Shown here: positions 27,668-64,000 of the stretch, one piece after another
Position numbering within the stretch: the stretch's first letter is position 1
Layout: each line of letters opens with the position of its first letter
Notes under the pieces: generated by a model
Database searches by the model: none
What the model was told of the DNA's origin: nothing
What the model saw: the letters and a program-made list of their open reading frames with translations, nothing else
Assembly (NCBI RefSeq): GCF_029873255.1
Contig: NZ_CP123622.1
Coordinates: 3,509,001-3,573,000 of the forward strand
Length of the DNA: 64,000 nt
Source: Pigmentibacter sp. JX0631
GTDB taxonomy: Bacteria > Bdellovibrionota_B > Oligoflexia > Silvanigrellales > Silvanigrellaceae
Direction: 5' to 3'
Program-made: the position numbers and the translations under genes

Positions 27668-28774
27668 ATGTGCTTTTTGCAATTTATAGTAAGAAAAATG
27701 AAAGTAAAATGGACAATTTTGGTTCTTTTTACCGTATCTTTTTCTGCATTTGCAAATGAAGAAGTTTATGAATACACAGTGCAACCTAATGATAATCTTT
27801 CAACTGTATTGCAAAAACTTTCACTAAAACCAATTTATGGAAAAAATGGATCTTTAGCAGAAGTACTTAAACTTAATCCAGATAAACAAGAGAGCAATGG
27901 TAATTGTATTTATGTTGGTGAGGTGATTATCTTACCAAAAAGCATGCTAACAAAGCAAAATCAATCTTCTGAAATAAAAACAGAAGTTGCTAAAAAGAAT
28001 GAAATTAAAAAACCCAATAATAATAACAATGTAGTAATCTCTCAACAGCCTAAAGAACCAAAAATACCTCTCCAAAAAAGCGAAAAAATTGTTACTCAAC
28101 AGCCTAAAGAACCAAAAATACCTCTCCAAAAAAGCGAGAAAATTGTTTCTCAACAGCCTAAAGAACCAAAAATACCTCTCCCAAAAAGCGAGAAAATTGT
28201 TACTCAACAGCCTAAAGAACCAAAAATACCTCTCCAAATAAATGAAAAAATAGTTACACAACAACCTTTATCAGTGCCTGAAAAAAAATTAACCAGTACT
28301 GAAATTAAAAAAATTGAACCAGGGCAAACATTAGCAAGTGAAAATTTACATCTCGAAAAAAAGAGTCAAATTGTTTCACCTTCAGAAAATGAGAATAAAA
28401 AATCCTTCAACAAATTAAATGAAATATTTTCTTCAAATTCTAAATTAAGCTTCAGTAAGCAGATATCTAAAAATAATTTAGAATTTGATAATAAATCAAA
28501 AATTGAAAATCAGCTTTTTCCTTCCCAAAAAACTATTTTGCTTGCACTTCCTCTAAAGAAGCAGGATATAAATAGAGAAGATACTTTAAGCAGTTCGAAT
28601 TCCAAAAATTCTTCAACAACAAATTTACTTTCTCGAAAAGAAGTTTTTCTTTCTGAAGAAAATAGTTGCGATATATTTCCTAGTTGCAAATTTTGGTTAT
28701 GGGATTTAAATAATAAATGTTGTCTTCCAAAAAAACCTTACTTTATGATAAGTAATGAAAATTCATTAAAATAA
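27668..28774 (+). CDS. LysM-like exported protein with 18-residue tandem repeats
   Basis: A 368-residue protein: signal peptide (hydrophobic stretch ending SFSAFA), then a LysM-like domain (YTVQPNDNLSTVLQKLS, PIYGKNGSLAEVLKLNP, IYVGEVIILP). This variant contains the inserted PIYGKNGSL segment shared with three other genes in the window. A Lys/Pro/Gln-rich linker with four 18-residue repeats (consensus QQPKEPKIPLQKSEKIVT) follows, then a Ser/Asn/Lys-rich region and a Cys-containing C-terminal patch (CDIFPSCKFWLWDL, KCCLPKK). LysM domains bind N-acetylglucosamine polymers, so peptidoglycan attachment is likely, with the basic Pro-rich part as a periplasm-spanning stalk. The start is the ATG at 27668 because GAGGG lies 6 bases upstream; the in-frame ATG at 27698 has no ribosome site. 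Confidence 0.75.
   Translation: MCFLQFIVRKMKVKWTILVLFTVSFSAFANEEVYEYTVQPNDNLSTVLQKLSLKPIYGKNGSLAEVLKLNPDKQESNGNCIYVGEVIILPKSMLTKQNQSSEIKTEVAKKNEIKKPNNNNNVVISQQPKEPKIPLQKSEKIVTQQPKEPKIPLQKSEKIVSQQPKEPKIPLPKSEKIVTQQPKEPKIPLQINEKIVTQQPLSVPEKKLTSTEIKKIEPGQTLASENLHLEKKSQIVSPSENENKKSFNKLNEIFSSNSKLSFSKQISKNNLEFDNKSKIENQLFPSQKTILLALPLKKQDINREDTLSSSNSKNSSTTNLLSRKEVFLSEENSCDIFPSCKFWLWDLNNKCCLPKKPYFMISNENSLK
28043..28258 (+). repeat. Tandem repeat, 4 units of 54 bp
   Basis: Units begin at 28043, 28097, 28151 and 28205, each starting CAACAGCCTAAAGAACC. They encode the 18-residue QQPKEPKIPLQKSEKIVT motif. The first three units are almost identical in DNA, and the fourth diverges in its second half. Near-identity implies recent expansion and probable copy-number variation. 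Confidence 0.95.
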
Positions 28775-38455: not shown

Positions 38456-39562
38456 ATGCTAGATTTTTGCAAACAAAAGATTCCGCTTGAATCTTTTCTT
38501 TATCTAAACAAAAGGTACATTAAAGTGAAATTACAAAACATAAATCTTGAAAACAACTTAAAAACTTTCACAAATTTTGCTGAAAACCATAGTAATGAAA
38601 TTCCATATTCATTAACCCTCGATTTTAAAAAACATAAAGGTCATATTGTTTTTTCAGGTTTGGTACATGGAAACGAAACAGGTTCCTTACCTGCAATTAT
38701 AAGAATCATTCAGGATCTCTTGTCTAAAAAAATTTCTTATGGAGGAAAAATTTCTTTCTTTTTAGGAAACATACCTGCAGCCCAGCAAAATGTGCGTTTT
38801 ATTGAAATGGATTTGAATAGAAGCTTTGGAGAAAGTGCAGCAACAAATACCACTATTGAAGCAAAAAGAGCGAGAGAACTCACCCCTTTATTGCAACAAG
38901 CAGATGTTTATTATGATTTTCATCAAACAATTATGCCTTGTTTACGCCCATTTTATATTTTCGAAATGGATTTCCAAAGTTACTATTGGGCTAGATCTAC
39001 TGGGATAGCTAATACATACGTCACTAGAAAGAAAGGTGCAGCATTTTCAAATTTAGGGATGTGTACAGATGAATATGTTCGTTCTCTTCAAAAAGTAGGA
39101 ATTACTATTGAACTTGGCGAAAAAGGATTTCAGAAAGATGCTGAACTTTATGCTTACTTAATAATGAAAAGAGCTATAAAAAATATGGATTTAGTATATT
39201 TACATAACTGTTCCATTAAAAAATTAGCTCATAAAAATGAAGATTTTGAATTTATGCAAATAAAGTATAAAGAAAAATTTGATCATCCTAATAAACGGCT
39301 TCATCAAGGATTTAGTAACTTTAAGTTTATAGATAAAAATGATTCTATTGGCTTCGATGGTAATAATAAACCTCTAATAGCCCCGCTCAGTGGAAATCTA
39401 TTATTTCCTAAATATCCACCGCGTGATGAAAATAATCAAGCAAAATCACCATTGCCTGGAGAACTTTATGTGATTGCTCAAAAGATGAATTTTCATCCTT
39501 TAAAATGGCTTTCTGCTTACAAATCAAGAGAAAATCCAAGTCGTACACCAAACTCTAAGTAA
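38456..39562 (+). CDS. AstE/aspartoacylase-family zinc hydrolase
   Basis: A 368-residue M14-like deacylase. Zinc and catalytic motifs are IVFSGLVHGNETGSLP (HGNE), VRFIEMDLNRSFGE and VYYDFHQTIMPC, plus TIELGEKGF, which carries the catalytic Glu. The family hydrolyses N-acyl amino acids (succinylglutamate, N-acetylaspartate) or related amides. No arginine-catabolism ast genes are nearby, so the substrate is open. The ATG lacks a clear ribosome site. The 3' end overlaps the convergent barrel gene by 46 bases. Confidence 0.8.
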   Translation: MLDFCKQKIPLESFLYLNKRYIKVKLQNINLENNLKTFTNFAENHSNEIPYSLTLDFKKHKGHIVFSGLVHGNETGSLPAIIRIIQDLLSKKISYGGKISFFLGNIPAAQQNVRFIEMDLNRSFGESAATNTTIEAKRARELTPLLQQADVYYDFHQTIMPCLRPFYIFEMDFQSYYWARSTGIANTYVTRKKGAAFSNLGMCTDEYVRSLQKVGITIELGEKGFQKDAELYAYLIMKRAIKNMDLVYLHNCSIKKLAHKNEDFEFMQIKYKEKFDHPNKRLHQGFSNFKFIDKNDSIGFDGNNKPLIAPLSGNLLFPKYPPRDENNQAKSPLPGELYVIAQKMNFHPLKWLSAYKSRENPSRTPNSK

Positions 39563-40527
39563 TTTAGATTTATTGGAGAAGTTTTTAGATAAAAAGAATT
39601 ATAGTAAAGGTTTGTACTAATTGACCAATCTGATTTTTTAAAAATAAATTCTGGACCAAATTCATAGCCAAAACCATTTACAGTTCCATAATTAGGAACT
39701 TGGACAGGAATAATACCATTACAGACTCCATATACATTAAACTCTAAATGGTCAGTATAAAAAAGATGAAATCCAATTGTAGCATTTATTTTTGGTAATA
39801 AAATTGTTTCAATAACAGTGGTATTTGAATTTAAAGCTCTAAATGCAATTAATCCTCCGTATTGCAATTCAGGTTTTAAATATATTTTTTCAACAATATC
39901 GTATTTCATCCCAAAAACTGCATTAACTATTCTATTTAATGAATTATAAACATTAATTCCAGCTGTTGAAGATGAAACTTGTAATACTGAGTAATTTACT
40001 TTTTGGAAAGTTTTTAAGTCTGGACTCCAATTTTCTGTTAAACCTATTTCTTGCAATGTAACAGCTTTAAACAGAATTGTCTGTGAAATATTATAGTTCT
40101 TATCTGTTCCTGAAATTTGATAGTAATGAATATTTCCATTTAATTCATAGGAAAAAAAACTTTGTCTTATTTCTTTAGTCGTTCTATTATCAATCGACAA
40201 AGTTTCTTTATTGGCTTTTTCTTTTTCCATTATAATTTTCAAATCACTTTCTTCTGAGTTGATTAAAAATTCACTTTCCTGTGACTTTAATTCAGTACTT
40301 GGCGAAGTATTTTCCTGCGACTTTAATTCAGTATTTGGATTGTTATTATCTGGTTTAATTACTTCAATATCATTAAATTTAGGATCAATAGGATTTACTA
40401 TTGTACTTGAATTTTCTAAATTAGAAGCATCATTTTGTGGATAACAAGGTTGCATAATTAAAAATAATATCACAAGAAAATTATACTTAGAGAAAATAAA
40501 TTGTATCAGAATACGTATACAATTCAT
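39517..40527 (-). CDS. Exported outer-membrane beta-barrel protein (LysM-barrel family, no LysM domain)
   Basis: 336 residues with a signal peptide (MNCIRILIQFIFSKYNFLVILFLIMQPCYP), a ~90-residue Asn/Ser/Glu-rich linker with a short ELKSQE repeat, and a C-terminal barrel of about 215 residues. The barrel resembles that of the 48399-49484 protein: QEIGLTENWSPDLKTFQKVNY against VELGLIQHWTSDFKSFLGINY, and a common ending (YYNSFYLK..NLNYLEFGVRL against YYNHYSTY..FDYTEVGISI). Its ATG overlaps the stop of the LysM-barrel gene upstream (ATGA), so the two are made together. Function unknown. Confidence 0.65.
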   Translation of the reverse strand: MNCIRILIQFIFSKYNFLVILFLIMQPCYPQNDASNLENSSTIVNPIDPKFNDIEVIKPDNNNPNTELKSQENTSPSTELKSQESEFLINSEESDLKIIMEKEKANKETLSIDNRTTKEIRQSFFSYELNGNIHYYQISGTDKNYNISQTILFKAVTLQEIGLTENWSPDLKTFQKVNYSVLQVSSSTAGINVYNSLNRIVNAVFGMKYDIVEKIYLKPELQYGGLIAFRALNSNTTVIETILLPKINATIGFHLFYTDHLEFNVYGVCNGIIPVQVPNYGTVNGFGYEFGPEFIFKKSDWSISTNLYYNSFYLKTSPINLNYLEFGVRLGFSLDL

Positions 40528-42059
40528 TGATTTTCCCCTAATGGAAATGTTACTTCAGCTATCAAACCAAAATTTGCTTCATTAGAATTAACATCAGAAG
40601 TTTTTATATTTTTATTTATGTAAAATAGTTTTGTAGTAAAATCAAAATTTTCGAAAGCTTTAAGAATGGATAAATTAATTTCATAGCCACTTCCTAGGCC
40701 ATTATTATTAACAAAACTTAAGGAAGAAATATAGCCAATTTCAGAAAATATATCTACTAATTTTGTTTTATAAAAATGCAGACCCAAATACAGCATATTA
40801 TTAAAAACATAAATACTTTGTAAATTTGAATTATTACTGTATGGTTTATATATTACATCTTTTCCAAAATTTAACTTTTCATGAATGTGCACATTTTTAT
40901 GTAATTGATAATTTAATCCTAAATTTAATCCAAATAGTAACACAGGATTTCCTGAAATATTATAATAACTACTGTTTAAAAAATCTAGATAAGAAAATTC
41001 TAACGATGAATAAGTCCCAAACTGTTCATTCCAATTTTTTAAGTAACCTAAACCAATAATTGGACTTAATGAAGTATAAAGAACATTGTCAGTATTATTG
41101 GATGTATTATATTCGTGATATGTATAATATGCAGTTCCTACATTTAATTTAATATTACTTTCATGATAGGCTAATAAAAAAGAAGGAATTTCTATAATAT
41201 TAGAAGTTCCTAATTCCTTTTCATCATTAATAGCTTTTACTTGATAGAAGTAAGTTCTGTTTCCTTGAATATTCATATCTGAAAAGTTAGTATCAACACT
41301 ATTAAGTAAAATAGACTTAAATTCATCTTCAATTTTAGATTTTCTAAGTAGAATATATTTAGTACTACTGTTTTCATCTATAGATTCCCATTCAACATGA
41401 ATTGTTTTATCTTTTAACATACCCTTCAAGCTTGTATAAAAAATTGGTTTATAAATTATTTTTAACTCATTTGAATTTAAAATAAGACCATTTCCATCTT
41501 TAACCATTACAAGATATTTATATTCTTTATCTAAAATTAAATCTTTATCTTTAAAATCTTTAACAGTAATATTATCTTCTATTGTTTTAAATTCATTTTC
41601 ATCAGATAATGCTCTTTTTACTTCATATTTATATTCTGAATTATCAGGAAAAATATCCCATTTTAAATGAACAGTATTTTTTTCTAACATTCCGCTTAGT
41701 ATTAAAACTGGTTCTTTTTTTTCAACTTCTTTATCTTCTCGTATAATTTCACTAGCAATTACTTTATTTCCTTTTCTAAGTTTGAAATAAGGTATTTTTA
41801 TTTTTTCTCTAGGATATATCAAATTTCCTTTTGATTTCTTTTTCTTTGGATTTAAATCTAATGTGCGTTTTAAAGATCCTTTTTTTCCAAAAATTGGATT
41901 TAATTTATATTTCTTTAATATTTTATATAAAGTATCATTCTTTTTTACCGTGTAAATTACAAAATTTTGCTTCTTTGCGTAAGCTTCATTTCTCCAAGAA
42001 AAATGAGTTACGGTTAAAATGATCAAAAATTTAAGAAATAAATTTTTTAATTTGAGCAA
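40524..42059 (-). CDS. LysM-like / FN3 / outer-membrane barrel protein
   Basis: 511 residues in four parts: signal peptide (ending EAYA); LysM-like domain at ~34-90 (YTVKKNDTLYKILKKYKL, PIFGKKGSLKRTLDLNP, IYPREKIKIP) with the same insertion as in the other three genes; two FN3-like modules at ~115-295 (NTVHLKWDIFPDNSEYKYEV and KTIHVEWESIDENSSTKYIL); and a C-terminal barrel (~215 residues) rich in aromatic strands. The layout suggests an outer-membrane protein whose N-terminus grips peptidoglycan. The start is TTG with AAGGG 8 bases upstream; there is no ATG in a suitable place. It is coupled to the downstream barrel gene. Confidence 0.7.
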   Translation of the reverse strand: MLKLKNLFLKFLIILTVTHFSWRNEAYAKKQNFVIYTVKKNDTLYKILKKYKLNPIFGKKGSLKRTLDLNPKKKKSKGNLIYPREKIKIPYFKLRKGNKVIASEIIREDKEVEKKEPVLILSGMLEKNTVHLKWDIFPDNSEYKYEVKRALSDENEFKTIEDNITVKDFKDKDLILDKEYKYLVMVKDGNGLILNSNELKIIYKPIFYTSLKGMLKDKTIHVEWESIDENSSTKYILLRKSKIEDEFKSILLNSVDTNFSDMNIQGNRTYFYQVKAINDEKELGTSNIIEIPSFLLAYHESNIKLNVGTAYYTYHEYNTSNNTDNVLYTSLSPIIGLGYLKNWNEQFGTYSSLEFSYLDFLNSSYYNISGNPVLLFGLNLGLNYQLHKNVHIHEKLNFGKDVIYKPYSNNSNLQSIYVFNNMLYLGLHFYKTKLVDIFSEIGYISSLSFVNNNGLGSGYEINLSILKAFENFDFTTKLFYINKNIKTSDVNSNEANFGLIAEVTFPLGENQ

Positions 42060-42151
42060 ATCTCAATCCCTTTTTAGACTTTCCCGCTTTGTTGTTTCGG
42101 ATCTTAGAGAAATGCTTAAATTTTAAGGATTAATTTTTGACGGCTTAAGGT

Positions 42152-42985
42152 TTACTTGATATGGGTAGATATATCTGTAAGAACTGTAATTGAATCACCT
42201 ATTTTAACGTGTTTTAGTAATTCCCAAGAGACAGAACAGCTATTCTGGTTTGCAGCTGAATATTCTATTTTGTTTGTGGAACCTTGTGTTTGCAATAATT
42301 GAGCTGGTTTTAGCAATAGAACGTCCCCATTCCCAACTTCGATATATGAAGTCTTGAAATCACAAACTTGCATTAGACTTAAAAAATTTCTTATAACTCC
42401 TCCGTGTGTGGACCAAATAAAAATATCCTGAGAAGTACCATCTTGCATTAAATCAATTTGAGGATTCTCATTAACTTGATTGGAAAAGAAGTTATTTAAT
42501 TCTAAAAGATAAGGAAGAATTCTTTTGGAAACCATATTCCAAGACTCTGAATTTTCACCAGGATATTTGGCATTTAATGGATCATCTTTGTAGTCAGAAA
42601 AATATTTTTCTAACTTTCCTGGATTTTTTCCAAGATATTCATCAATTGTATAGTTTTCTAAGTCACCTGCATGGTATTCTCGCAAATTTGGATCACAAAT
42701 AAAATTTAAATTTTCTCCTAAACGAGTTGAGATTACTTTACTTACAACTTTCGCAGATAAAAAAGATCTCTGTAAATCTGATGTTCGACATTCGATTATT
42801 TTTGAATTAGGAAATTTCATAAAAATATCTGTTAATAATTCACTAATAGTATCACCTGTTTTTTGGACTTGTTCCAACCCATTCATATTTAATGGACAGT
42901 TTTGCTGCCCTTGAAATCGTTTTTCTGCATTGTAATCAGTCTGACCATGTCTAAATAAAATAACAAGAGGATTTATTTTTTTCAT
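42152..42985 (-). CDS. Histidine phosphatase superfamily protein
   Basis: 277 residues with the phosphohistidine motif LFRHGQTDYNAEKRFQGQ (RHG at 12-14) and the conserved downstream TSDLQRSFLSAKVVS and WSTHGGVIRNFL (second catalytic His). These match the phosphoglycerate-mutase-like fold. The long insertion between the two motifs and the operon with acetoacetyl-CoA synthetase argue against a glycolytic mutase; a broad-specificity phosphatase is more likely. It follows aacS by 10 bases. Confidence 0.8.
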   Translation of the reverse strand: MKKINPLVILFRHGQTDYNAEKRFQGQQNCPLNMNGLEQVQKTGDTISELLTDIFMKFPNSKIIECRTSDLQRSFLSAKVVSKVISTRLGENLNFICDPNLREYHAGDLENYTIDEYLGKNPGKLEKYFSDYKDDPLNAKYPGENSESWNMVSKRILPYLLELNNFFSNQVNENPQIDLMQDGTSQDIFIWSTHGGVIRNFLSLMQVCDFKTSYIEVGNGDVLLLKPAQLLQTQGSTNKIEYSAANQNSCSVSWELLKHVKIGDSITVLTDISTHIK

Positions 42986-48398: not shown

Positions 48399-49484
48399 TT
48401 GAAAGTGATCACTTTTAATATAAAATCTAAATATTTGTTTTTCGTTACCTGTTCACTTTTATTGAACTTTCATCTTTCTTTTTCTATGGAAAACTCAAAT
48501 AAATTAAATAATAATACAGAAATTGAATTTAATAAAATTGATCACCAATCACATGAAGTTAATTTTGATGAATTAAAAAAAAGTAAAGTAATACATTTAA
48601 ATGAACCAAAAAATATTTCATGTGAATTATATAAAACAAATGAAGGAGAAACTCTTACTAGTATTTTAAGAAAAAAAAAGTACTTTCCAATTTATGGAGA
48701 AAATGGATTTTTAAAAAAAACACTAGAAGTAAATCCTAATATTTCAAATTACAACTTTATACTTCCAGAAGGTGAAAGTATTTGTTTACTTGAAAACAAA
48801 TCAGAAAAAGAGAATAGCGAGCGAAATATAGATGCAAATTTTCACTCATTATTCTTAGAAGGAGGGATAAAATACTTAAGATTGATTGAAATTGATTCTA
48901 CAACAGGTACTGAAGCAAAGCTTTTATCAAGGGCAATACCTTTTGTTGAATTAGGTTTAATTCAACATTGGACAAGTGACTTTAAAAGTTTCTTAGGAAT
49001 TAATTATGCTGTTTCCCAAATTATACAATCCGATTCTAGTGTTGTAATTGGAGACAGTATAATTAGATTAACAAATTATTTTTTAGGTCTAAATTATAAA
49101 TTTAATTATTTATTTTATTCTGAAGTTACAATATCATATGGTGATACATTAGTTGTAAGAGCTATTAGCGATAATACATTAAAAATTGAAAAAATGTCGA
49201 ATATAAAAGCAAAATTTTTAGGAGGTATTAATTTTTTAGCAATTGACAATATTTTATTTAATAGTGAAATTGGTTTTTTATTAAATACAAAATATAACAA
49301 TGAAATATACAATTCAGATTATGGAAAAGGTTACGAAGGAGCTTTAGTAATATTATTAATTAGCAAAGACTGGGAATTAAGAGGAAGATTATATTATAAC
49401 CATTATTCAACATACGTGCAACCCGTTACTTTTGATTATACAGAGGTTGGTATTTCAATTCGCCTTACAGCAGATCTGGAGTAA
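48399..49484 (+). CDS. LysM-like exported outer-membrane barrel protein
   Basis: 361 residues: signal peptide (KYLFFVTCSLLLNFHLSFS), a short acidic linker, a LysM-like domain with the shared insertion (CELYKTNEGETLTSILRKKK, PIYGENGFLKKTLEVNP), and a ~215-residue C-terminal barrel related to the one at 39517-40527. The start is uncertain. The frame begins with TTG at 48399, with a GTG two codons on; the first ATG is at codon 30, after the signal peptide, so a non-ATG start is needed. No good ribosome site is visible. It ends 2 bases from the convergent DsbA-like gene. Confidence 0.65.
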   Translation: MKVITFNIKSKYLFFVTCSLLLNFHLSFSMENSNKLNNNTEIEFNKIDHQSHEVNFDELKKSKVIHLNEPKNISCELYKTNEGETLTSILRKKKYFPIYGENGFLKKTLEVNPNISNYNFILPEGESICLLENKSEKENSERNIDANFHSLFLEGGIKYLRLIEIDSTTGTEAKLLSRAIPFVELGLIQHWTSDFKSFLGINYAVSQIIQSDSSVVIGDSIIRLTNYFLGLNYKFNYLFYSEVTISYGDTLVVRAISDNTLKIEKMSNIKAKFLGGINFLAIDNILFNSEIGFLLNTKYNNEIYNSDYGKGYEGALVILLISKDWELRGRLYYNHYSTYVQPVTFDYTEVGISIRLTADLE

Positions 49485-49486
49485 TA

Positions 49487-50584
49487 TTAATTAATTTCAT
49501 TTTTTATCCTACTTTCTAATTCATTCATAGAAAAATTCAATTCCCTTTTATTTATATATAAAGTAGGTGATCCTTTAAAACCATTTGTTGAATATAATTT
49601 ATTTTGGACAGAAATTAATGTATCATTTATTTTTCTAGATTCTAAACAAGTACTAAAATTTTTTATCTCAATTTTCGTATTTCCTGCAATACTTATTACT
49701 TTCTTTTTAATTTCATCACTTTTTAAATTTTCATTACTACTATTCTTTGCTATCTGCGCAAGAACTTTTCTAGAATAATCCCAATATTTGTCATTACCTT
49801 GCTCTTGAGCACAAAATGCACCTTTTGCAAAATAGCCACTTTGCGAATCTAAATTTGCAGTATAAGGTATATTTATAAAATTAATTTTTCCCCCATATTT
49901 TTTATAAATATCTTCAATTTTATTTTCTAGATCAATACTTTTAGGATTTGTAAAATCAATAATACTAATTAAAGATATATTCGTATTCATATTTCCACGT
50001 TTTGGAAATACACTCACATCAAATAGTAAAGGATCACCTAAAGGTTGGTTTATATATGTTGTATATTTTTTATTACTTATTAATTCTGATATTTTCTGCT
50101 CAGAAATTAAATTCATTTTTTCATAATTAAGTTGAAATTGAATTTGAATTTTTAATTTATCAAATCCTTGGCCTGCAAATACATTAGCACCATGTTCTTT
50201 CATCATTTTATTATAATAGTTCAATGCATCTTCTTCAGTAGCCTGATTAAATTTTACAAGATCAAATAAACTTGGAATGTAATTTTTATCAAAATTTTTC
50301 TTTTGTTCTTTGGCTAGTATAATTCTTAATGCTAAATGATCTGCAAAGCGTTTTTCGGCATTATAAATATTATTTTCAATATTGGTATATTCTAAAATCA
50401 AATCATTTGGCAAATCAGCATTTGTCCAATCTTTATCATCTATTTTAACAATTTTTTTTACCAATATATTTTGATTTAAAGAAAATTTATTTTGAATAAA
50501 ATGATATGCTAGAAAAAGAAGTAATCCTGTTAGCACTCCAGAGACATATAAAAAAAAATAAAATAATTTGATCCGCTTCTTCAT
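49487..50584 (-). CDS. DsbA-like thioredoxin-fold protein without a CXXC active site
   Basis: 365 residues anchored by one N-terminal membrane span (LFYFFLYVSGVLTGLLLFLAYHF), with the rest probably periplasmic. The C-terminal ~170 residues follow the DsbA/BdbD pattern: LISIIDFTNPKSIDLENKIEDIY (family: DFxCPxC), INFINIPYTANLDSQSGYFAKGAFCAQEQGNDKYWDY, STCLES and GSPTLYIN (cis-Pro loop). The CxxC is replaced by NPKS at about 213-216, so it cannot be a thiol oxidant. A ~110-residue helical domain precedes it. It directly follows the giant FN3 lipoprotein on the same strand (47 bases) and may assist it as a chaperone. The start is the ATG at 50584 with AGGGGGAT; a TTG one codon earlier is possible. 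Confidence 0.7.
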   Translation of the reverse strand: MKKRIKLFYFFLYVSGVLTGLLLFLAYHFIQNKFSLNQNILVKKIVKIDDKDWTNADLPNDLILEYTNIENNIYNAEKRFADHLALRIILAKEQKKNFDKNYIPSLFDLVKFNQATEEDALNYYNKMMKEHGANVFAGQGFDKLKIQIQFQLNYEKMNLISEQKISELISNKKYTTYINQPLGDPLLFDVSVFPKRGNMNTNISLISIIDFTNPKSIDLENKIEDIYKKYGGKINFINIPYTANLDSQSGYFAKGAFCAQEQGNDKYWDYSRKVLAQIAKNSSNENLKSDEIKKKVISIAGNTKIEIKNFSTCLESRKINDTLISVQNKLYSTNGFKGSPTLYINKRELNFSMNELESRIKNEIN

Positions 50585-50631
50585 CAAAGTATCCCCCTAA
50601 AATTGAATTCTAGGAATTATAATAGCATACT

Positions 50632-51470
50632 TTAATAGATACTAATTCCATATCCTTTTCCAAACCCAGAGCTGCTAGAACAACTAGCGGCTGAAGGAAT
50701 TGAACCATTGGCAGCGATAGGACACGAATAAACAACCCCAACTGAATTTACAATATAGACATCACTACTATTAGGTGTACTTGTTATTGCCCATATTGTT
50801 CCAAAACCATTTGCAGTATTCGTACAAGTTGAACTAGCAGGAAATACTCCGCTAGTGAATGGACAGACGTACACGTTTCCATTTGAATACCCACCTACAT
50901 ATGCGTAACTACCATTATAACCCATACCCCAAGCACCTGTAAAAGTACTAGATTGTGAACAACCAGAAAAGTTTGGAACGACTCCACCGCTTAATGGACA
51001 AGATGTTACTTTATTAACAGAAGAATAATTTGCAAGATAAAAATAATTATTTTTTACAAAACCGGCATAAGCCTTATTAAATCCAGTTCCAACTGAGCAA
51101 CCACTAGAATTTGGAATTGAACCGTTACCTTGTACAGGACATGAATATATTGTACCTGCACTATACATGACTACATACACATAATTATTAGCATAATAAA
51201 TTGTTGGATAGGCAGGAAATGAATCACTGAATCCTGTACTTTTTAAACACCCTGAAGCAGTTGCTGGGATAGTATTATTTGTTATGGGACATGCATAAAC
51301 AAAACCAGAACTATTTACCACGTACAAAAATGAACTTGAAGCAGATACGCTGTACAAACTTCCATACCCCGTTGATGCAGCACAACTTGCAGCATTAGGC
51401 ACCGCTCCACCAGACAAAGTACAAGTATAAACAGAACCATTATTATCACCGATATATGTTACTGTCGCTG
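50632..51470 (-). repeat. Six-bladed Cys-paired C-terminal propeller of the giant lipoprotein
   Basis: Six repeats of about 45-50 residues, each with a YV-type strand, (T/S/A/V)C(P/T), a Gly-Ser turn, IPxSxxC and GFG. Every blade has two cysteines 12-14 residues apart. The count suits a closed six-bladed beta-propeller at the tip of the fibre. Confidence 0.65.
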
Positions 51471-54400
51471 GAACTGGAAAATTAACTGTGTATGCACTGC
51501 GAACAATTTCCATATTACTAAAATTTAATGCAGCATTTGTCCATGCTGCAGCAAATGCTAAGTATCCATTCAATGTAAAATTTTGTTGAGTTCCATTCCT
51601 TGGAAAATTTCCTAATATAAAATTACCGCCTCCTAGAGCTGAAGCATTTGTTGAAGGTAATGTTTGAGTTCCATTTGTATCTAAAATATTTGAAGAACCG
51701 CTTAAAGATCTACCGACAAAATTATATCCAACATTACTGTTCGTAATTGTTTGATTTGCTAAATCATCTCGAAAATTATTTCCACTTCCATTATTAAAAC
51801 CAAATCCATTTGTTGAACTCGCTGATGAATTATTTGAATATCCAAAAATTCCATTAAAGTTAGTTGAACTAGGATTTTGTGCATAAGCTACTATTGTTGA
51901 AGGTTGTGTTGAATTAAATATTGAAGAATTAGAAATTGCTATTCCATAATTAGGAGCTGGCGCCAAAGCAGAGCTACCTAAAACACCATTTTGATCCCAA
52001 GCAAATGCAGCTGTAGATAAAGTAGAATTATGTTGATCACAATATAAGTCAAACACAGTTCTATTACTTATGCTTCCATATCCTGCATTTTGTTGTTTTT
52101 GCATTGCATATAACACATCTGGAATAGAAATATTATTTGTAATTAAATTATCAAGGAAATTTTTAATTTGCCCTTGCCCAGCAGCTGTTAATGAATATCC
52201 AGAGATACTGCTAACTCTATTTGTATAATCTGTTATTATTCCATTTGTATTTATTCCATTTGTTGTTGAATTTCCATTAATACAAACTTTACTACTACCT
52301 AAAAAGTTTGAACATGTTACACATGAAGTCAACACTTTACACAGATCGGCTGTTTGAGTAGTATAAGTTGAAGAAGTAGCACCACTTATTAAATTATTAT
52401 TTGCATACCAACTATAAGTACAATTTGAAGAATCGCTCCATGTACCTAAAGTAGTCGATAAAACATTTCCTGTTGAGGTAATAATATTTGAATTAGAACT
52501 AAATCCTGCACCTGACAAAACAGGCACTACAGTATTAACAGGTGAGCTATAAGTTACGGTTGCAATATTAGAGTTTGCAGTAGTATTAAAAGCATTCGTG
52601 GCTGTAACAACATAATAATAAACTGTTCCATTAACTGGATTTGTTAAATCTGAACAGAACGTATTTGTCAAATTAGAATTAGCGCAAGTTCCGGAAGTTA
52701 AAGTTACATATCCACTGCCTGATGCTGTAGAGCGTTTTACCGTATAAGTTATTGTTGCATTTCCTGGACTTGCTGTCCAATTTACAGAAATAGATCCAGC
52801 CCCAGAAATTGTAGCTGTAACACCTGTTGGAGGAGTTGTTTGAGTAACAGTGCTAACAGAGCTTGATTGAACAGTCGTTCCCGCTGAATTAATTGCTTGT
52901 ACTGCATAATAATAAATATTTCCGGGAGAACCTCCTGTATCAGAACAAGTTAATGAACTAATACCTGCAGGAGTACAAGTTCCTGTTGCAAAAGTTGAAA
53001 AGCTTCCAGCTAAATTAGTTGACGATCGTAATACGATATAACTTATTGCAGAATTTCCTGGACTTGCACTCCAAGAAATATTTATCGTCGTAGTATTAGT
53101 AGCTGTTGCTGAAATTGTTGTTGGTGTATTCGTCGGTAATGTAACAGTTACATTACTTGAAGTTGTAGTTGTTCCTCCTGCATTTGTGGCTGAAATATTG
53201 TAAAAATAAATATTTCCTGCAGTGGCAGTAGAATCTAAACAATTTGCAGTAGATGCTGTGACTGTTACGTTGCATACTATTTGTGAAAAACCAGATCCAC
53301 TATTTAACGATCGAAACACATTATATGTTGTGGCAGCTGATCCGGGACTCACAGTCCAAGATAGGGTTACAGAAGACGAAGAAGTTGCCGTCGCACTTAG
53401 ACCAGTTGGAGTAGTTGTTAAAGTTGTTGCTGTTGTTTGGACAGAATTTGAAGTTGTTCCCGCACTATTCGTTGCTGTAACCACATAGTAATATTGTGTT
53501 CCTATCGTTAATCCAGAATCAGTACATGTAATACCTGATAAATTCCCAAAACATCCACTGCCACTAGGAATAGCAGTAAATGTTGTCCCATTTATGGAAC
53601 GCAAAACATTGTATGTAACAGAGGCACTGCCAGGACTTGCTGTCCAATTTAAAGCTATTGAAGTTGTACTTGCAGTAGTAGCAACAAGTGTTGTTGGCGC
53701 TGTTGTTGGTAATGTTACTGAAACTTCAATGGAATTAGCTGAAGTACTTCCTCCAGTTGATGCCGTGAGAACATAATAATATGTAACACCCGGAAGAACA
53801 CTCGCATCATTGCATGATACCACTGGTGAACTTAGCGCACTACTACAGGTTCCAGATGTAGGAGATATATAAGGCCCACCTGTTGTTGTCGATCTTTTAA
53901 TATTATAAATTACACTACTTCCAGGGCTTGCTACCCAGCCGATATTAACTAACACTGAACTTGCTGCAGTTGCAGTTATTGAAGTAGGAGCAGTTGTAGG
54001 AGTTGTTACGTTTATTTCAAATGAATTAATCGATGCTCCTGCTGCTGTATTTGCTTTAATTATATAAAAATATTTTATACCAGGTGTGACAGAAGTATCT
54101 TGACAAGTTAAAACTGTTATATTTCCTGTGCATGCTCCACTTGTTAAAGTTGTATATGGACCACCTGTTACTAATGAACGAAATATTGTATAAGTTATAT
54201 TTGTTGTACCAGGACTTACTGACCAAGATAAATTCACTTGAGAAGAACTGGCTGCCATAGCGGTAAATGTATTTGGGGGAGAAGTAAAACTAGTTGCAGA
54301 TATTTCACTCGAATTTACTGAAGTACCACCAGGATTTGTCGCTGTTAATACATAAAAATAAGTTGTTCCTGGTGCAACAGTACTATCAATACAAGTAACG

Positions 54401-57400
54401 GCGCTAATATTTTTACAACCAGTAACTGGTGAATAAGCTCCTCCAGAAGTAGATGATCGACTTAATGTATATGTTGTACCAGAAGAATTCCCAGTTACTG
54501 TTGACCAGTTCATTTGAATTTGAGTTGTATTAATAGGATTGGCAGTTAATGAAGTTGGTGGATTTGGTGGTGAAGTTACTGTAATTTCATTTGAAAATGC
54601 GGTTGTTCCTGCACTATTTGTTGCTGATATAACATAGTAATACGTCGAACCAGATGCAATACTTGAATCTGTACATATGTTAGTTGTTACTATAGCACCA
54701 CAAGTTCCACTAGAACCACTTAACGAAACATAACCACTACCACTAACATTAGAGCGAAAAATGTTATAATTTATTGCAGAGTTACCAGGACTAACAACCC
54801 AATATAAATTAGCACTTGTTGTTGTTAACGATGCTAAACTTAATCCACTGGGGGGATTTGTTGGTAAAGTTAATTGTTTTTCAGAGGTAGATAATATATT
54901 TCCTGACGAATTTTGTCCTTTAATTCGCATAAAATATGAATTTCCTGGCGACAAATTATTTAATGCTATTGAAGTTGTTGTTACAGGTCCTTGACTACCA
55001 GTGTATGTACCAGAAACAGCACCATATTGAAGAGTATAATTTTGTGCACCACTTGCTGACGACCAATTAATATTAGCGGATGTTGAATTCACTGGGCTCA
55101 AACTTGTAAAATCAAAAGGGGCAATTGACATTCCTGAAATTTCAGAACTTTGAAATGTTCCACCTACAGATAAGTTTGCAACTAAGGCAAAGTAATAGGT
55201 AACCCCGTTAGATAAGCCTGTAGCAGTACAACTAGTTCCAACTAAATTAGAGCATCCTGATGCTATTTGGCCGCCACTTATAGCATTTCCTGATGAAGTT
55301 GAAAAATAAATATTATATGTAGTTGCATTTACTACACTAGCCCAATTTAATGAAATTTGCGATGAAGCAATTCCTGAAATTGTCAAAGTATTACCTAATG
55401 GTGTACTGCTTACTTCTGAAGTTGAATTAGTTGCGCTTGAATTTACACCAGTGTTATTTGCAAAAACAGTAAAGTAATAAGTTGTTCCGTTTGTTAACCC
55501 TGTTGCAGTACACGTTAAAGTAACAATAGAAACACAACCTGTAACATTAGTACCTGAAGATGAACCACCTAAAGTGGTAGATGATTTCACAGTATAATTT
55601 GCCGCGCCAGAAGCAGAATTCCAATTTAAAGTAATTTGGCCAGATGAAGAAGAAATAGTTGTAATCGAAAAAGATCCAATAGGTGTTACAGTAACTTGAT
55701 TTGAATTAGCAGAAACTCCACCACTTGTATTTGCATTAACAACATAGTAATAAGTTGTGCCAAGAAAAACCGAATTATCTGATGCTGATGTTGAATTAAT
55801 ACCTGATTGGACGACTGAATATGAGGCTCCAGAAGTTTGGGAACGACTTAATGAATAAGTAATTAGTGCCGCAGTACCAGTACTTGCTGTCCATGTAAAA
55901 TTCACAAATGATCCGCCGGCAGTTGCAGATAAACCAGTAGGTGCCGTTGTTGGTGTTACTGTATTTATTTCTATAGAATTTCCTGTAGTACCATTTGAAT
56001 TCGTCGCTCTAACGATATAAAAATATGCAGTACCAGCCGCAACAGAACTATCAGTACAATTTAATGAACTAATAGCTACACAACCAACGACATTTGTATA
56101 TGGTCCACCTGTTGTTGAAGAACGTAAAACTGTATATGTATTAGGAAGAAGCCCAGGACTTGGAGCCCAAGTCATCACAATATTAGTTGAAGTTATAGTA
56201 GTAAATGAAAATCCTGTCGGAGGACTGGTCGGCATATTTACTGTTACTTCATTTGAAGCTATTGATGTTCCCCCTGAATTTATTGCTGTGACAATATAGT
56301 AGTATTTATATCCGGGTAAAGCTGTAGAATCTATGCAAGTTAAAACTGTTACGTTATTACAACTCCCTGAAGTTAACGGAGAGTAATTAGAACCACTAGT
56401 TACTGATCTGCTAACTTGATATGTTACATTTGCAGAACCCGTACTCGCGCCCCAAGCTAAATTTACATTTGTACTACTTGTTGCAGTAGCAGTTAAAGTC
56501 GATGGCGCATTTGTTATCGTAGTTGCTGAAACTTCACTCGATAATGGAGAACTACCCCCTCCATTTATTGCTGTTATTGTATAGAAATAAGTAACTCCTG
56601 CAGACAATCCTGAATCAGAACAAGAGCTAGTTGAGGTACTTAAATTTCCTGAACACCCTCCACTTGCTACGTTAACATACCCACTTCCAGATGTAGTTGA
56701 TCTACCAACAACATAACTGATAACAGAATTTCCTGGACTTAAATTCCATGAAAGATTTATAGTTGAAGACGATGCAGTTACTGCAACTACATTTGTTGGT
56801 GCAGTAGTAGGTACTGTTACTGTTACTTGATTTGAATTATTTGTTGTACCTGCAAGATTAGTTGCATTTACTATATAATAATAAACAAATCCTGGATTTA
56901 CTGAAGTATCAGTACAATTAGTTACACTAAGCGCACTATTTGAACAAGTGCCTGCAGTTACTAACGAATAAGATGATCCAGAAATAACAGATCTTTTAAC
57001 AGTATATGAAACAGATGATCCACTACTCGGACTAGCAGTCCATGACAAATTAATTGCCGAGGAAGAACTGGCTGAACCAATTAAATTAGTGGGAGCCATT
57101 GTTGGCATTGTTACTGAAGCCTCAACTGAATTAGCTGAACTCCCTCCCGCTGTATTTGCAATTACGACATAGTAATACACAGTTCCGGGTGACAGATTTT
57201 GATCTGTACACGTTGTACTTGCCACAAGCGCAGAACATGTTCCAGAAATTATAGAAGTATAACCACTACCACTTACAGTTGATCTTTTTACTGTATAAGT
57301 AACGTTATTTGTTGAACCCACACTAGCAGTCCAAGATAAGGTAACAGAAGTTGACCCTGTAGCTGTAGCTACCAAATTTGTAGGTGTGTTAGCAGCGGTA

Positions 57401-60400
57401 GTTGCTGTTACTTCTGTTGAATAAGGAGAATTCCCCCCTGCTGTTGTTGCAAGAAGAACATAAAAATACTGAGTTCCTGGACTAACTGTCGTATCAGAAC
57501 AAGTTAGGCTTGAAATTGAAGAACAACTTGTTACTAAAGTATAAGGTCCACCACTTACTCCAGAACGCATTAATGAATAAGTTATATTTGCAGTCCCTGG
57601 ACTAGCTGTCCAAGAGAAATTTATTACAGATCCACTCATAACATTAGCAACTAAATTTGTAGGAGAAAGCGTGGGAGTTGTTGCAGTAACCGCTGTTGAA
57701 TTTGCACTCGATCCTGCAGCAGTTATTGAGTTAACTATATAGTAATATGTTGTTCCAGGCAGTACATTTTGATCAAAGCAATTTGTTGAACTTACCGCAG
57801 TTTGACAACTTCCTGCTAAAATAGCTGTATAGGTAGATCCATTTAAAGAATGTTTAGCTAAATAAGTAACGGCATTACTTCCAGTAGTTCCTGTCCAATT
57901 AAGAGAAATAGAAGTTGTATTCAGAGCAGCAGCTGTTACATTAATAGGAATATTTGCAAAAGTTGTAACTGAAGTTTCATTTGAATTTCCTGATGTTCCA
58001 CCAGAAGTTACTGACTGCGCAACATAATAATATTTTGTTGCAGTTTGTGCAGTCGTATCTTGACAATTTAAAGTAGGATAATTTATATTGCCAGCACATC
58101 CGCCAGTAGTTAAAGCTGTATAAGGCCCTCCACTTTGGGTTGAACGTAATATTATAAAACTAAGTGAAGCACCCCCTGAATTACTAGACCAAGATAAATT
58201 AACTGCATTTGCATTTGCTGCTGTAGAAATTAAATTTGTAGGAGCTGAAGCTTGGGAAGTTAACGATAGTTCTGTTGAATTTCCTGTATTACCGGCAGCA
58301 TTACTAGCTGAAACAACGTAAAAATAATTACTTCCAGAAATAATTGATGTATCAGTGCAACTTGCAGAAGTTATATTTGTACAACCTACAACATTTGTAT
58401 AAGGACCTCCACTTAAATTTGCCCTTTTCAATGTATAACTAATTGGATCGGTACCTAAACTTGGATTCCAAAATATAAACACAGCCGAACTACTAGCTGC
58501 ATTGCCTGCTAAACCTGTAGGTATTGTTGTTGGAGTTACTGCATTTGCTTCTGAAGAATTAGAAGAAGTTCCACCAGTATTGCTTGCTTTGACAATATAA
58601 AAATATTTGTTTCCTGCTGAAACGCTCGTATCAGTGCAACTAGCTGTAGAACCACTTAACGTAACAGGACATGAAATTGTAGTGTAAGGTCCTCCTGAAG
58701 TAGAAGAAGTTTGAACAATATAATTAATGCTTGAATTGCCTGGACTGATATTCCAAGATAAATTAATAGTGGAACTACTTGCCGCAGTAGCTGTTACATT
58801 AGTAGGAGGTGTTGAAATTAGTGTAGTTGAAAATTCTGAATTCGAATTTACATTTCCTTGTCCATTATTTGCAACTATTTTAAAATAATAAGTAGTTCCT
58901 GCATTCAAATTAGATATTGTTGCTGGTGATGTGGTATAAGGACCGCTTGAAAAAGTGTATGTGCCAGAAACTATCCCATAAATAATATTGTAAGAACTTG
59001 CACCTACTGCAGAACCCCAACTTATTTGTGCACTACTTGCCGATAACCCTGTTACAGCTGTGAAATCAAATGCGCCTATAGGCGTTGCAAAAATTTCTCC
59101 ACTATTAAAACTTCCACCCGTTGATAAATTTGCAACCATTGCAAAATAGTATTTTGTTCCGTTTGTTAAACCTGTCGCTGTGCAAGAATTTAAAGTTATT
59201 GAACTACAACCAGTAGCTAAAACTCCACCAGATATGGCATTACCTGAAATTTGTGAAACATAAATATTGTAATTATTAGCATTTGGTATTGCATTCCAAT
59301 TAATTACTACTTGACCTGTTCCAGCAGTAATTGTTGTAAATGGAGTATTAAAAGGAGTACTTGTAGCCTCACTAGAAGAATTACTCGCAGTAGATCCTAC
59401 TCCCACATTGTTTGCAAATACAGTATAGTAATATGTCGTACCATTTGTAAGCCCAGAATTAATTACACAAGTTGTCGAAGCTATTGCTGAGCAATTGGTA
59501 ATAATTGAGCCAGAACTTGAGCCACCCATTGTAGTAGATTGTTTGACAGTATAATTTGTCGCACCCAAAGCTGTGTTCCAAGTTAAAGTAACTTGATTAG
59601 GAGCTGTGATATTTCCAATAATATTTAAACTGCTAATTGGTGTCACAGTAATTTGATTTGAATTTCCCGAATTTCCACCACTTGTCATTGCCTGAACTAC
59701 ATAATAATATGTTGTCCCATTACTTACATTAAAATCACTATAACTTGTCGAAGAAATATTAGTATCAATTACACTATATGGACCACCAGAAGATAATGAT
59801 CTTTTAATTATATAGCTGATAGAACCTGCAGTACCACTACTCGCTGTCCATGTTAAATTAACAACACCCCCTCCATTTGCTGTTGCAATTAAACTTGTAG
59901 GGGCATTTGCTATAGTTGTTGCAACAACTTCATTAGAATAAGCAGACACACCTCCAGCTGTAGTTGCAGTTAATACATAATAATAACTAGTTCCTGCTAC
60001 TACTGTTGTATCTGTGCATGAAGTTAAAATAAGAGATCCACTACATCCACCAGAAAGTATCGTTGTATAGGGTCCGCCACTCGTTGTTGCACGAGCAACA
60101 TCATATGAAATACTTGCTGTTCCCGGACTTGTTGTCCAAGATAAAGAAACGGAAGAAGAACTTGTCGAATTAACATTATTTAAAACAGGAGGAGTTGTAA
60201 AAGTCGTAGCTTGGGCTTGTGTTGAATAAACAGATTCACCACCAGCAGTTATTGAAGTAACAACATAATAATAAGTAGTACCTGCTATTAAATTTGTATC
60301 TGAACAAGAATTAATTGTTACATTATTACAAGAACTAACTATAGAAAAAGGACCTGTTCCAGATGTTGAACGATATAAATTATACAATATACTTGTTGTA

Positions 60401-63400
60401 CCAGGACTTGTTGTCCAAGTAAGATTTATAGAAGAAGTGTCTTGCGAAGTAGCTGTTAAGTTAGTAGGAGCTGATGTAGGTAAAACAACATTAACTTCAG
60501 CCGAATTAGTTGAAACTCCACCAGCTGTTGTTGCTTTTACTACATAATAATAAGAATTTCCCGGTGATGCGCTAGTATCAGTACATGTAAAGGTATTGAC
60601 TAAGCCACTTTGACAAGTACCAGATGATATTGCCACATAATTAATTCCTCCACCAGTTAGACTACGCAGGACTGTATAAGTAATTGTTGCGTTACCAGAA
60701 CTAGCTGACCAAGTAACATTTACTGCGCTTGTTCCCAAAGGACTTGCAGTTACATTAGCTGGTGGATTTGTAATGGTTGTTGCATTTGCTTCTGAGGAGT
60801 AAACAGATACTCCACCTGTTGTTGATGCAGTAACAACATAAAAATATTTTGTTCCTGGAAGAACATCATTATCTACACAAGTAACGATAGGAGATAGTAT
60901 ATTTGTTCCACAAGTTCCATTTACTATTTGAGAGTAACCTGATCCGCTTGTCGTAGAACGAAACAGTGTGTAACTTATTTGTGCGCTTCCTGGACTCGCA
61001 GTCCAAGATAAATTGATAGAATTTGTTCCAGCTGAAGCGGCTGTTAACGTTGCTGGAGCATTTGTTGGAGTAGTTGCCGAAGCAAAACCTGAATTTCCTG
61101 ACGTACCTCCTGCAGTTGTAGCTGTTATAATATAGTAATAAGTTGTTCCTAGAGTAACTGAACTATCTATACATGATGTAACAGATAAACTTCCTGAGCA
61201 TCCACCAGAAGCTATAGCAACATAACCACTAGAACTACTTGTCGAACGTAGCACTATATAGGTTATGGGAACCGTTCCTGGACTTGCAGACCAATTAATA
61301 TTGATACTCGTACTTGATAACGTGGTAGCTATCAAATCAACCGGAGGGGTTGTAGTTGTCGTGGCATTAGCTTCAGCTGAAAAAGAAGATATGCCCCCAT
61401 CTGTTGTTGCCGTAACAACATAGTAATATTTCTTCCCCAGATCGACGGCTGTATCTACACAGCTTGTAACTCCAACAGAAATAACTTCACAACTTGCTGA
61501 AGGGACTAAAATATAACCAAATCCTGAAGTTTCAGAACGATAGACTTGATATGTAATTAAAGAAGAACTCCCTGGACTTGCAGTCCAAGATAAATTAACA
61601 GACGAATTTCCAACTGCGGTAGCAGATAAACCAGTTGGTGCATTTGTTGCAGTCACAGCATTAGCTTCAATTGAATTGCTTGTAGTCCCTCCCGCAGTAG
61701 TAGCTAAAACGACATAATAATAACGCAATCCTGGTGATGCACTTAAATCAGTACAAGTTGTTACTGTAAGGCTTGAATTACTGCACGTTCCAGATGCAAT
61801 TGCTGTATAAGGTCCACCGCTATTTGTTGCTCTTTTTACTTGATAAGTAATAGGAACACTCCCAGGACTGGTTTGCCAATTTAAAGAAATTGAAGAGGAT
61901 GAATTTACAGTCGCTATAATATCACTAGGAGGTGTAGTCAGAGTTGCTGTTGTAGATTCACTTGAATTAGGAGAAGAGCCGCCACTGGTTGTTGCTAGTA
62001 CAACATAGTAATAATTTGTCCCAGGAGAAAGTCCATTATCACTGCAACTTGTTCCGTTAATTCCAATACAATTTGGAACTGGTAAATAATTACTACCCGA
62101 TGTTGTAGATTTAAAAACTGAATAAGTTATCTGCCCAGCAGTACCAGAGCTTGGAGTCCAAGAGAGTTGTAATGAATTAGCAGTAATTGCAGAAAATACT
62201 AACCCAGTTGGAGAATTGGGTTGTGTAGTTAATGCCAATTCTGCACTATTTGCTGTCGTCCCAACAGAATTTGTTGCACTAGCAACATAAAAATATTGAG
62301 TACCTGCAGATACCGAACTATCCGTGCAATTTACAACACTAATATTTATACAGCCAACTACATTCGAGTAAGGACCTCCTGATGCAGAAGATCTTTTTAA
62401 TGTATAAGAAATAGGAACATTTCCAGGACTTTGGAGCCATTGAAGAACTGCTGAACTTGTCGTTACAAGTGGACTATATAAATTGGTTGGAGGAGTTGTT
62501 GGAGTTACAACAGAAGCTTGAAGAGAATTAGGGGAACTTCCAGCCGAATTACTAGCAGATACAACATAATAATATTGCATTCCTGGTAAAACGGAATTAT
62601 CGGCATAAGTTAAAGTAGCAGAGTTTAAATTACTTGCGATAAGATCATATGGCCCGCCAGAAACTATTGAACGACTGACTTGATAGACGATTGTCCCCAA
62701 ACCAACAGCAGCGTTCCAACTTACATTTGTTAAATTAGAACTAGCAGCAACCGCTGTTACTGCTGTTGGAGCAAATGGAGGCGCAAGTGGAGTTGCTGTA
62801 CTGATGTTACTTATGACACTACCAGCATTATTGGTAGCAGTAACTTGAAATTGATAGGTTGTTCCATTGTTTAAATTAGGAATAATTGTATAAGTAGATT
62901 GCAAATTGGTTATGGTATCCGTAAATGGACCTGGGAATATGCCATAATTAACTGAATAAGTTTTAGCAATATCAACCGCATTCCAAATTAAATAAACGGT
63001 TTTGTCGCCAGATATCGCATTCACAGATTGAAATGGACCAACAGTAGCTGCAATTTCTGTTTTAGAATCCGTATTCCCATAGGCATTTTGCGCAGTTACT
63101 TTAAAATAATATTGTATACCGTTTTGCAATGAAGGAATGTTGCAAACAATCTGTGCGTTACATGAAGTTACTGAATTTGTATAATTTTTTGATGAAGTTC
63201 CGTACCAAACAGTGTAACTTTTAGCTTTTTGTGCTTGCCCCCAAAGTAACGAAACCTGACTATCACTTGCTAAAACATCTGTGATTTCAAAAATTTTAGG
63301 AGTAGATAAAAATGGGCTATTACCGTCGTCAACATGAGAATTTGATCCTCCTAATGGATTAAAATTGCAGCCATATGACGCGAATAAAAAAAACAAGAAA

Positions 63401-63441: not shown

Positions 63442-63640
63442 ATCCTAATTTAAAAATTTACTTTATTATATCTAAAAAATGAATGTTTTTCTATTAACTT
63501 TTTCTTCATTATCTTAAATATTTACTATGCAAATTTTTCACTGCCAGAAAAAATATCCTTAAAATCATCTCTGTTACAAAGAATTATAACAAACCGAAAC
63601 GTTTATATAAAGTTAGAAAAGTTTTAACAGGTAAAAGGGT

Positions 63641-64000
63641 TTGAGAATAAAAATTTTAAAAGAAAATTTAATTAAAAAAATTTTAATGCTGTTTGTAATT
63701 TTATTTTGTCAAATGAGTGAAAATACTTTTCCTAGAGAATTAAAAAATATCCAATACAAAGTGCAAAAAAAAGATACTCTCCTAGGAATTCTAAAAAAAT
63801 ATTCATTAAAACCAATTTATGGGAAAAACGGTTCCTTAGTTGAAATATTAAAACTAAATCCCCATAAAATTAATACAAAAGGAAATCTTATTTATCCGGG
63901 AGAAATATTAACGCTGCCATTAAAAAAAGAAATTGAAAATAATTCTTTAAATAATAACAATAATAATAGTAATTCAACTATAAATTCAGAAGCAAAAAAA
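63641..64000 (+). CDS. LysM-like exported protein (3' partial, runs off the window)
   Basis: A frame starting at TTG 63641 (AGGT 8 bases upstream) and open to the right edge encodes 120 residues. It has a basic/hydrophobic signal peptide (KENLIKKILMLFVILFCQM), then a LysM-like domain (YKVQKKDTLLGILKKYSL, PIYGKNGSLVEILKLNP, IYPGEILTLP) and an Asn-rich linker. The domain is the closest match to that of the 27668 gene. What follows, a repeat linker or a barrel, lies outside the window. It is divergent from the giant lipoprotein across 199 bases. Confidence 0.75.
   Translation, partial: MRIKILKENLIKKILMLFVILFCQMSENTFPRELKNIQYKVQKKDTLLGILKKYSLKPIYGKNGSLVEILKLNPHKINTKGNLIYPGEILTLPLKKEIENNSLNNNNNNSNSTINSEAKK

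Follow-up and report, generated by a model that had tools for sequence, protein, structure and literature searches.

Outer membranes require attachment to the cell wall, and few means of achieving it are known. OmpA and OprF do so by joining a small barrel to a peptidoglycan-binding part. In the OmpM and SlpA tethers of Veillonella and Deinococcus, an N-terminal wall-binding part is followed by a periplasmic linker and a C-terminal barrel, as set out in parts of PMC10628300 and of PMC9388160; the former further gives OmpM as absent from the Gracilicutes. Here, we examine two overlapping open reading frames, ORF1 and ORF2, in a 64,000-nucleotide stretch of Pigmentibacter sp. JX0631 (NZ_CP123622.1, positions 3,509,001 to 3,573,000; hereafter the window), which encode a LysM, fibronectin type III (FN3) and barrel protein and a second, LysM-free barrel protein. 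The Bdellovibrionota, the wider group of this bacterium, belong to the Gracilicutes.

Tentatively, and with slightly less than even confidence, we read ORF1 as a wall-tethered outer-membrane barrel and ORF2 as its LysM-free partner, the two being a second copy of a set of type A and type B barrels and likely forming one complex. The 10-stranded barrel of ORF1 would hold the protein in the outer membrane, and its FN3 spacer and LysM domain would point inward and bind peptidoglycan, tethering the outer membrane to the wall. ORF2 would be encoded on the message of ORF1, with translation probably coupled, and would most likely dock beside ORF1 and share its wall anchor. The architecture of ORF1, in which a wall-binding part and a spacer precede a C-terminal barrel, is known from OmpM; the LysM-FN3 version with a LysM-free partner is a new variant. 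If our reading is true, the combination would be a new tethering arrangement in the Silvanigrellaceae. This family is little studied and includes the Daphnia parasite Spirobacillus, which part of PMC12321486 likewise places in the Silvanigrellaceae; the main text of that paper contains none of the terms 'LysM', 'fibronectin' and 'outer membrane'. Our literature search, in which papers on LysM, porins and tethers were judged by title and start of abstract, returned no description of a LysM-FN3-barrel protein, Bdellovibrio and Silvanigrellales included.

Gene structure and domain content

ORF1 (40524-42059, minus strand, type B) encodes 511 residues from a TTG start, and ORF2 (39517-40527, minus strand, type A) encodes 336 residues from an ATG start. 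Just as originally predicted, the two lie on the minus strand and share an ATGA (40524-40527) that holds both the start of ORF2 and the stop of ORF1. Each begins with a signal peptide, called by eye, and ends in a predicted 10-stranded barrel; between these, ORF1 carries a LysM domain and two FN3-like domains, and ORF2 a linker. The exact junction varies among the three genomes that have the pair, with ATGA in the window's own genome (G000), TAATG with one shared nucleotide in G002, and in G006 a 24-nucleotide gap and a TTG start of ORF2 preceded by AAGGAGG. The ATGA form itself is not conserved, and tight co-directional adjacency is kept in all three. A promoter scan of 39300-42400 was uninformative, with 24 sites against 20.7 expected by chance. 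At its 3′ end, ORF2 overlaps the 3′ end of a convergent aspartoacylase-like gene by 46 nucleotides (39517-39562), as it also does in G002.

Both genes are under purifying selection. Between G000 and G002, the ratio of nonsynonymous to synonymous substitution rates (dN/dS) is 0.16 for ORF1 and 0.15 for ORF2, falling to 0.076 when the barrel of ORF2 is taken by itself; nine further neighbourhood genes lie at 0.04 to 0.19. Given the low ratios of the two full-length genes, ORF1 and ORF2 look like real, constrained genes. These features also bear on a plainer account, in which the two are independent barrels of one operon, ORF1 a tether and ORF2 a small porin-like barrel, and coupling sets only their amounts. 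Tight gene spacing is common in bacterial operons, ORF2 has a signal peptide of its own, and its barrel is strongly constrained, all of which favours this account; we consider it a serious possibility, if on balance somewhat improbable.

The original prediction had placed LysM and FN3 modules in one of the two proteins and neither in the other, and the domain searches agree. The LysM domain of ORF1 (PF01476; residues 36-90, 41790-41954, minus strand) exceeds the Pfam cut-off at 27.2 against 20.9 bits. With Pfam fn3 (PF00041), ORF1 reaches 19.6 bits, under the cut-off of 25; its two FN3-like domains (residues 117-198 and 217-286; 41202-41711, minus strand) were both found by a profile built from 27 segments of a neighbouring giant FN3 protein, at independent E-values (i-E) of 5e-8 and 7e-6. 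At E up to 1, the same profile matched nothing in ORF2 or in A, which is the closest in-genome relative of ORF2, and ORF2 had zero Pfam matches at that threshold. Across type B proteins, the number of FN3 copies ranges from 1 to 6, which fits a spacer of adjustable length. In Pfam, the barrels of ORF1 and ORF2 had no match near a cut-off; in NCBIfam, the same was true of ORF1, ORF2, A and B, the last being the closest in-genome relative of ORF1. We disregarded two weak Pfam matches below cut-off, namely a beta-propeller in ORF1 (E 0.023) and a cupredoxin in A (E 0.013).

Compared with the described tethers, ORF1 is closest in layout to OmpM and SlpA, sharing the order of a wall-binding domain (here LysM), a spacer (here FN3) that would likewise lie in the periplasm, and a C-terminal barrel. 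By analogy it may work like OmpM. It differs in having LysM instead of SLH, FN3 instead of a coiled coil, and 10 predicted strands instead of 16 (OmpM) or 30 (SlpA), and because Pfam found no SLH domain in ORF1 at E up to 1, ORF1 is not an OmpM. Relative to OmpA and OprF, the order of the parts is reversed, LysM takes the place of the OmpA domain, and 10 strands are predicted against 8; Pfam gave no OmpA-domain match (PF00691) in ORF1 or ORF2. The inverse autotransporters (type Ve; intimin, YeeJ) are similar in that a signal peptide and LysM precede an outer-membrane barrel, but in ORF1 the FN3 part also precedes the barrel and no passenger follows it, ORF1 and ORF2 each ending at most five residues past the last predicted strand. 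Pfam searches at E up to 1 did not find their barrel family, PF11924. The LysM domain of YeeJ binds peptidoglycan and aids the surface localisation of YeeJ, as reported in part of PMC5595812.

The predicted barrels

AlphaFold2 models place a C-terminal barrel of 10 strands in both proteins, at about residues 300-506 of ORF1 (40542-41162, minus strand; two broken strands each counted once) and about residues 125-335 of ORF2 (39523-40155, minus strand). By prediction only, both would thus be closed 10-stranded outer-membrane barrels. The predicted local distance difference test score (pLDDT) of the barrel blocks is mostly 70-90, with two weaker ORF1 blocks at 53 and 59. In fold comparisons with the PDB, the top match was OpcA for both ORF1 (Z 19.1, root-mean-square deviation (rmsd) 2.6, 190 residues aligned) and ORF2 (Z 18.3, rmsd 2.9, 195 aligned). 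OpcA, OmpT/Pla, a Legionella porin of the Dot/Icm machine and the designed barrel TMB10 together span Z 15 to 19. OpcA and the omptins are 10-stranded. These matches speak to fold, not function; the folds of OpcA, the omptins (OmpT, Pla) and the Legionella porin are similar to those of ORF1 and ORF2 at 6 to 15% identity, the predicted loops of our two proteins are short, and no shared function is implied. Soluble beta-barrels match as well (2fr2 with ORF1, Z 13.5; 4tq2 with ORF2, Z 9.6). Foldseek alone also ranked OpcA first for ORF2, yet loosely (TM-score 0.43 by query, rmsd 7.5), followed by many outer-membrane barrels, and a sequence search of the PDB gave a single chance-level match (E 2.6).

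The models bear on topology and on likely role. When the strand number of a barrel is even, both termini lie in the periplasm, and because 10 strands are predicted, the FN3 and LysM parts of ORF1 should face the wall. In both models, the loops and turns between strands are 2 to 9 residues long (interrupted ORF1 strands counted as one), so that an anchor fits better than a large-looped adhesin or enzyme. Six residues are invariant in 20 of 20 barrels, and one of them, a tryptophan (ORF2 residue 167) that the model places in the first periplasmic turn, is a possible candidate for a shared contact. OpcA and OmpT act as monomers, which is a further point for two independent barrels.

The fold comparison also addresses whether ORF1 could be autotransporter-like, its LysM-FN3 part being a passenger exported by its own C-terminal barrel. 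Classical autotransporters show the same order of signal peptide, repeats and C-terminal barrel, and autotransporter barrels do appear in the fold lists. Their scores, at Z about 9 to 12, are far below those of OpcA, the omptins and the designed 10-stranded barrel (Z 15 to 19), the strand number is 10 by prediction against 12, and no autotransporter family was matched in Pfam at E up to 1. In addition, a LysM domain outside the cell would find no wall to bind. We regard export of this kind as highly improbable.

Two barrel types, their ancestry and co-conservation

The window holds A (48399-49484, plus strand), with a LysM-like segment and a barrel, and the start of B (63641-64000, plus strand), which begins 360 bases before the window end and continues as L020:2641-5709. 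B has 1022 residues with two LysM domains, six FN3 domains and a barrel. The original prediction held the two barrels to be related to each other and to the 48399 product, and this relationship stands, with sequence match scores of 93.6 bits for ORF2 and the 48399 product, 45.1 for ORF1 and the 48399 product, and 35.4 for ORF1 and ORF2. ORF1 and ORF2 do not pair as closest relatives, however, as a tree of 20 barrels separates A and ORF2 from B and ORF1 with support of 100/100. A clade of ORF1 plus ORF2 is rejected in this tree (approximately unbiased test, p-AU 4.8e-5), and a tandem duplication of a single barrel gene as the origin of the pair is rejected by the same test. The two groups keep support of 94/89 and 85/94 when a distant third barrel (L021:8463-9785) is added as a 21st row, and a match between the profiles of the two types persists across 207 columns (probability 99.65). 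These sequence comparisons make the pair a second copy, since diverged, of the two-type set formed by A and B. The two-type ancestry makes a clear, testable prediction, namely that every complex joins a single A-type chain to a single B-type chain.

As to the timing of the duplication, either gain or loss of the pair would fit the data. That the pair arose recently from A and B in G000, G002 and G006 is not rejected (p 0.35 and 0.45), and A alone as a clade is neither demonstrated nor rejected (p 0.47). For LepA, 24% of the 200 bootstrap trees united the three genomes with the pair, which does not order the lineages with and without it.

The distribution of the barrels follows the same two types. 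Barrels occur in seven of the eight genomes of a genus-level group and in none of the 72% complete eighth (G001), and in each of the seven the counts of type A and type B barrels are equal, ten of each in total: two plus two in G000, G002 and G006, and one plus one in G003, G004, G005 and G007. The group includes Fluviispira multicolorata (G005), assigned by NCBI taxonomy to the Silvanigrellaceae and Bdellovibrionota, and Spirobacillus cienkowskii (G003); the bacteria that carry the two-gene set form a small group, aquatic and host-associated. The 20-row barrel profile recovered its 20 barrels in seven of 14 family genomes, all of one genus, and barrel profiles had no match in the other seven, G001 included, or in 51 of 58 class genomes. 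Single-sequence searches with ORF2 (96 genomes) and A (56 class genomes) likewise matched nothing outside the genus. In scans of genome contigs, ORF1 as query confirmed nothing, and a second query gave two loci. The LysM profile reaches further, matching 11 of the 56 class genomes searched, and four of these lie outside the genus. Judged by these profiles and among the genomes searched, it is the barrel, not the LysM domain, that is confined to one genus-level group.

Co-conservation, to which the original prediction had tied its proposal of a hetero-oligomeric outer-membrane complex, was found: the pair is present and adjacent in G000, G002 and G006, between histidine-phosphatase and aspartoacylase-like genes, and neither gene was found alone in any genome searched (96 for ORF2, eight for ORF1). 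Co-conservation, the two-type ancestry and the equal counts in all seven genomes partly support this proposal, and we infer a physical heteromer because the types are equal in number and both are present at the second locus. The same two observations are unexpected if the barrels serve unrelated functions, and they speak against independent barrels in one operon.

Several points weigh against a tethered heteromer of ORF1 and ORF2. The contact between the two proteins is purely inferential, and their co-conservation in three related genomes can also be inherited synteny. The pair is absent from G003, G004, G005 and G007, which keep A and B, and is thus dispensable in the group. The AlphaFold2 inputs held only four and five sequences, and mean pLDDT was 62.2 and 54.5, with the linker, LysM and FN3 parts poorly predicted. 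The 20-barrel tree does not fix the branching order inside each type and carries a long-branch warning on the placement of ORF2 among the type A rows. Finally, three loci elsewhere in the genome match the OmpA domain (PF00691) and may tether by themselves, so that ORF1 is not the genome's only candidate tether.

The genes flanking the pair vary across the group. At E up to 1e-15, the histidine phosphatase just upstream of ORF1 (42152-42985) was found in three of the seven genomes searched, a set without G007, and these are the very three that carry the pair. In G003 and G007, a thioesterase directly adjoins the aspartoacylase-like gene, which in G007 consists of two overlapping frames (L075:11469-12543) and in G003 of one frame of 358 residues.

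The giant FN3 cluster and other LysM proteins

A, a thioredoxin-like gene, the giant FN3 protein and B cluster together in all seven genomes that have A and B, spanning 48399-64000 of the window and L020:2641-5709 here. The giant protein has 4269 residues, a lipoprotein-like start and 38 FN3 matches at i-E up to 1; in G006 it is seen as a frame of 3947 residues. In G000 and G002, the thioredoxin-like gene adjoins A; in the remaining five genomes, it adjoins B. Its product (49487-50587) is thioredoxin-fold-like, and the sole NCBIfam match is a weak one, to a family of thioredoxin-like lipoproteins. By eye, CXXC is replaced (by NPKS and similar) in all seven copies and two other cysteines are kept. 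We set aside a role as a disulphide-making enzyme, as none of the seven copies has CXXC at the place that we take to be the expected one for this fold.

The adjoining giant suggests that the A/B copy holds or displays surface proteins. In a broader version of our reading, the barrels would form a group-specific two-barrel complex in which the type B chain, here ORF1, anchors both; this unit would have been duplicated, and the A/B copy would hold or display the giant together with the CXXC-less thioredoxin-fold protein. We consider this version rather doubtful; if true, it would be a further and heteromeric means, besides OmpA/Pal and OmpM, of linking barrel and wall. A variant that we think unlikely makes display or export the function of the whole module, with A-type and B-type barrels and the thioredoxin-like protein as outer-membrane components of a system for exporting or anchoring the giant, and ORF1/ORF2 as a spare or retargeted copy. 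The constant clustering of the four genes agrees with it, as does the relatedness of the FN3 domains of B and ORF1 to those of the giant. Yet no giant adjoins ORF1/ORF2, a search of the genome with ORF1 met FN3 matches only in one giant frame and in B, and a folded passenger would not fit through a barrel of only 10 strands. A wall-tethered ORF1 with ORF2 as its partner is the reading we prefer.

LysM segments differ between the types. In type A, all 17 segments, 16 of them found by pattern and one by reading, bear a cysteine at each end with a spacing of 54 or 55 residues, against none of 14 in type B and none of three in ORF1; the type A LysM is possibly disulphide-stapled. Pfam does not detect the LysM of A (48399) at E up to 1, and its assignment comes from likeness to ORF1 (37 residues, 46%). 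Two further LysM proteins were seen. One, encoded at L021:8463-9785 on the minus strand (440 residues), has a barrel-like C terminus and is the distant third barrel that lies far from the others in the tree. The other, at 27668-28774 of the window, has no recognised barrel; its LysM falls just under the Pfam cut-off, and it carries tandem repeats around QQPKEPKIPLQKSEKIV.

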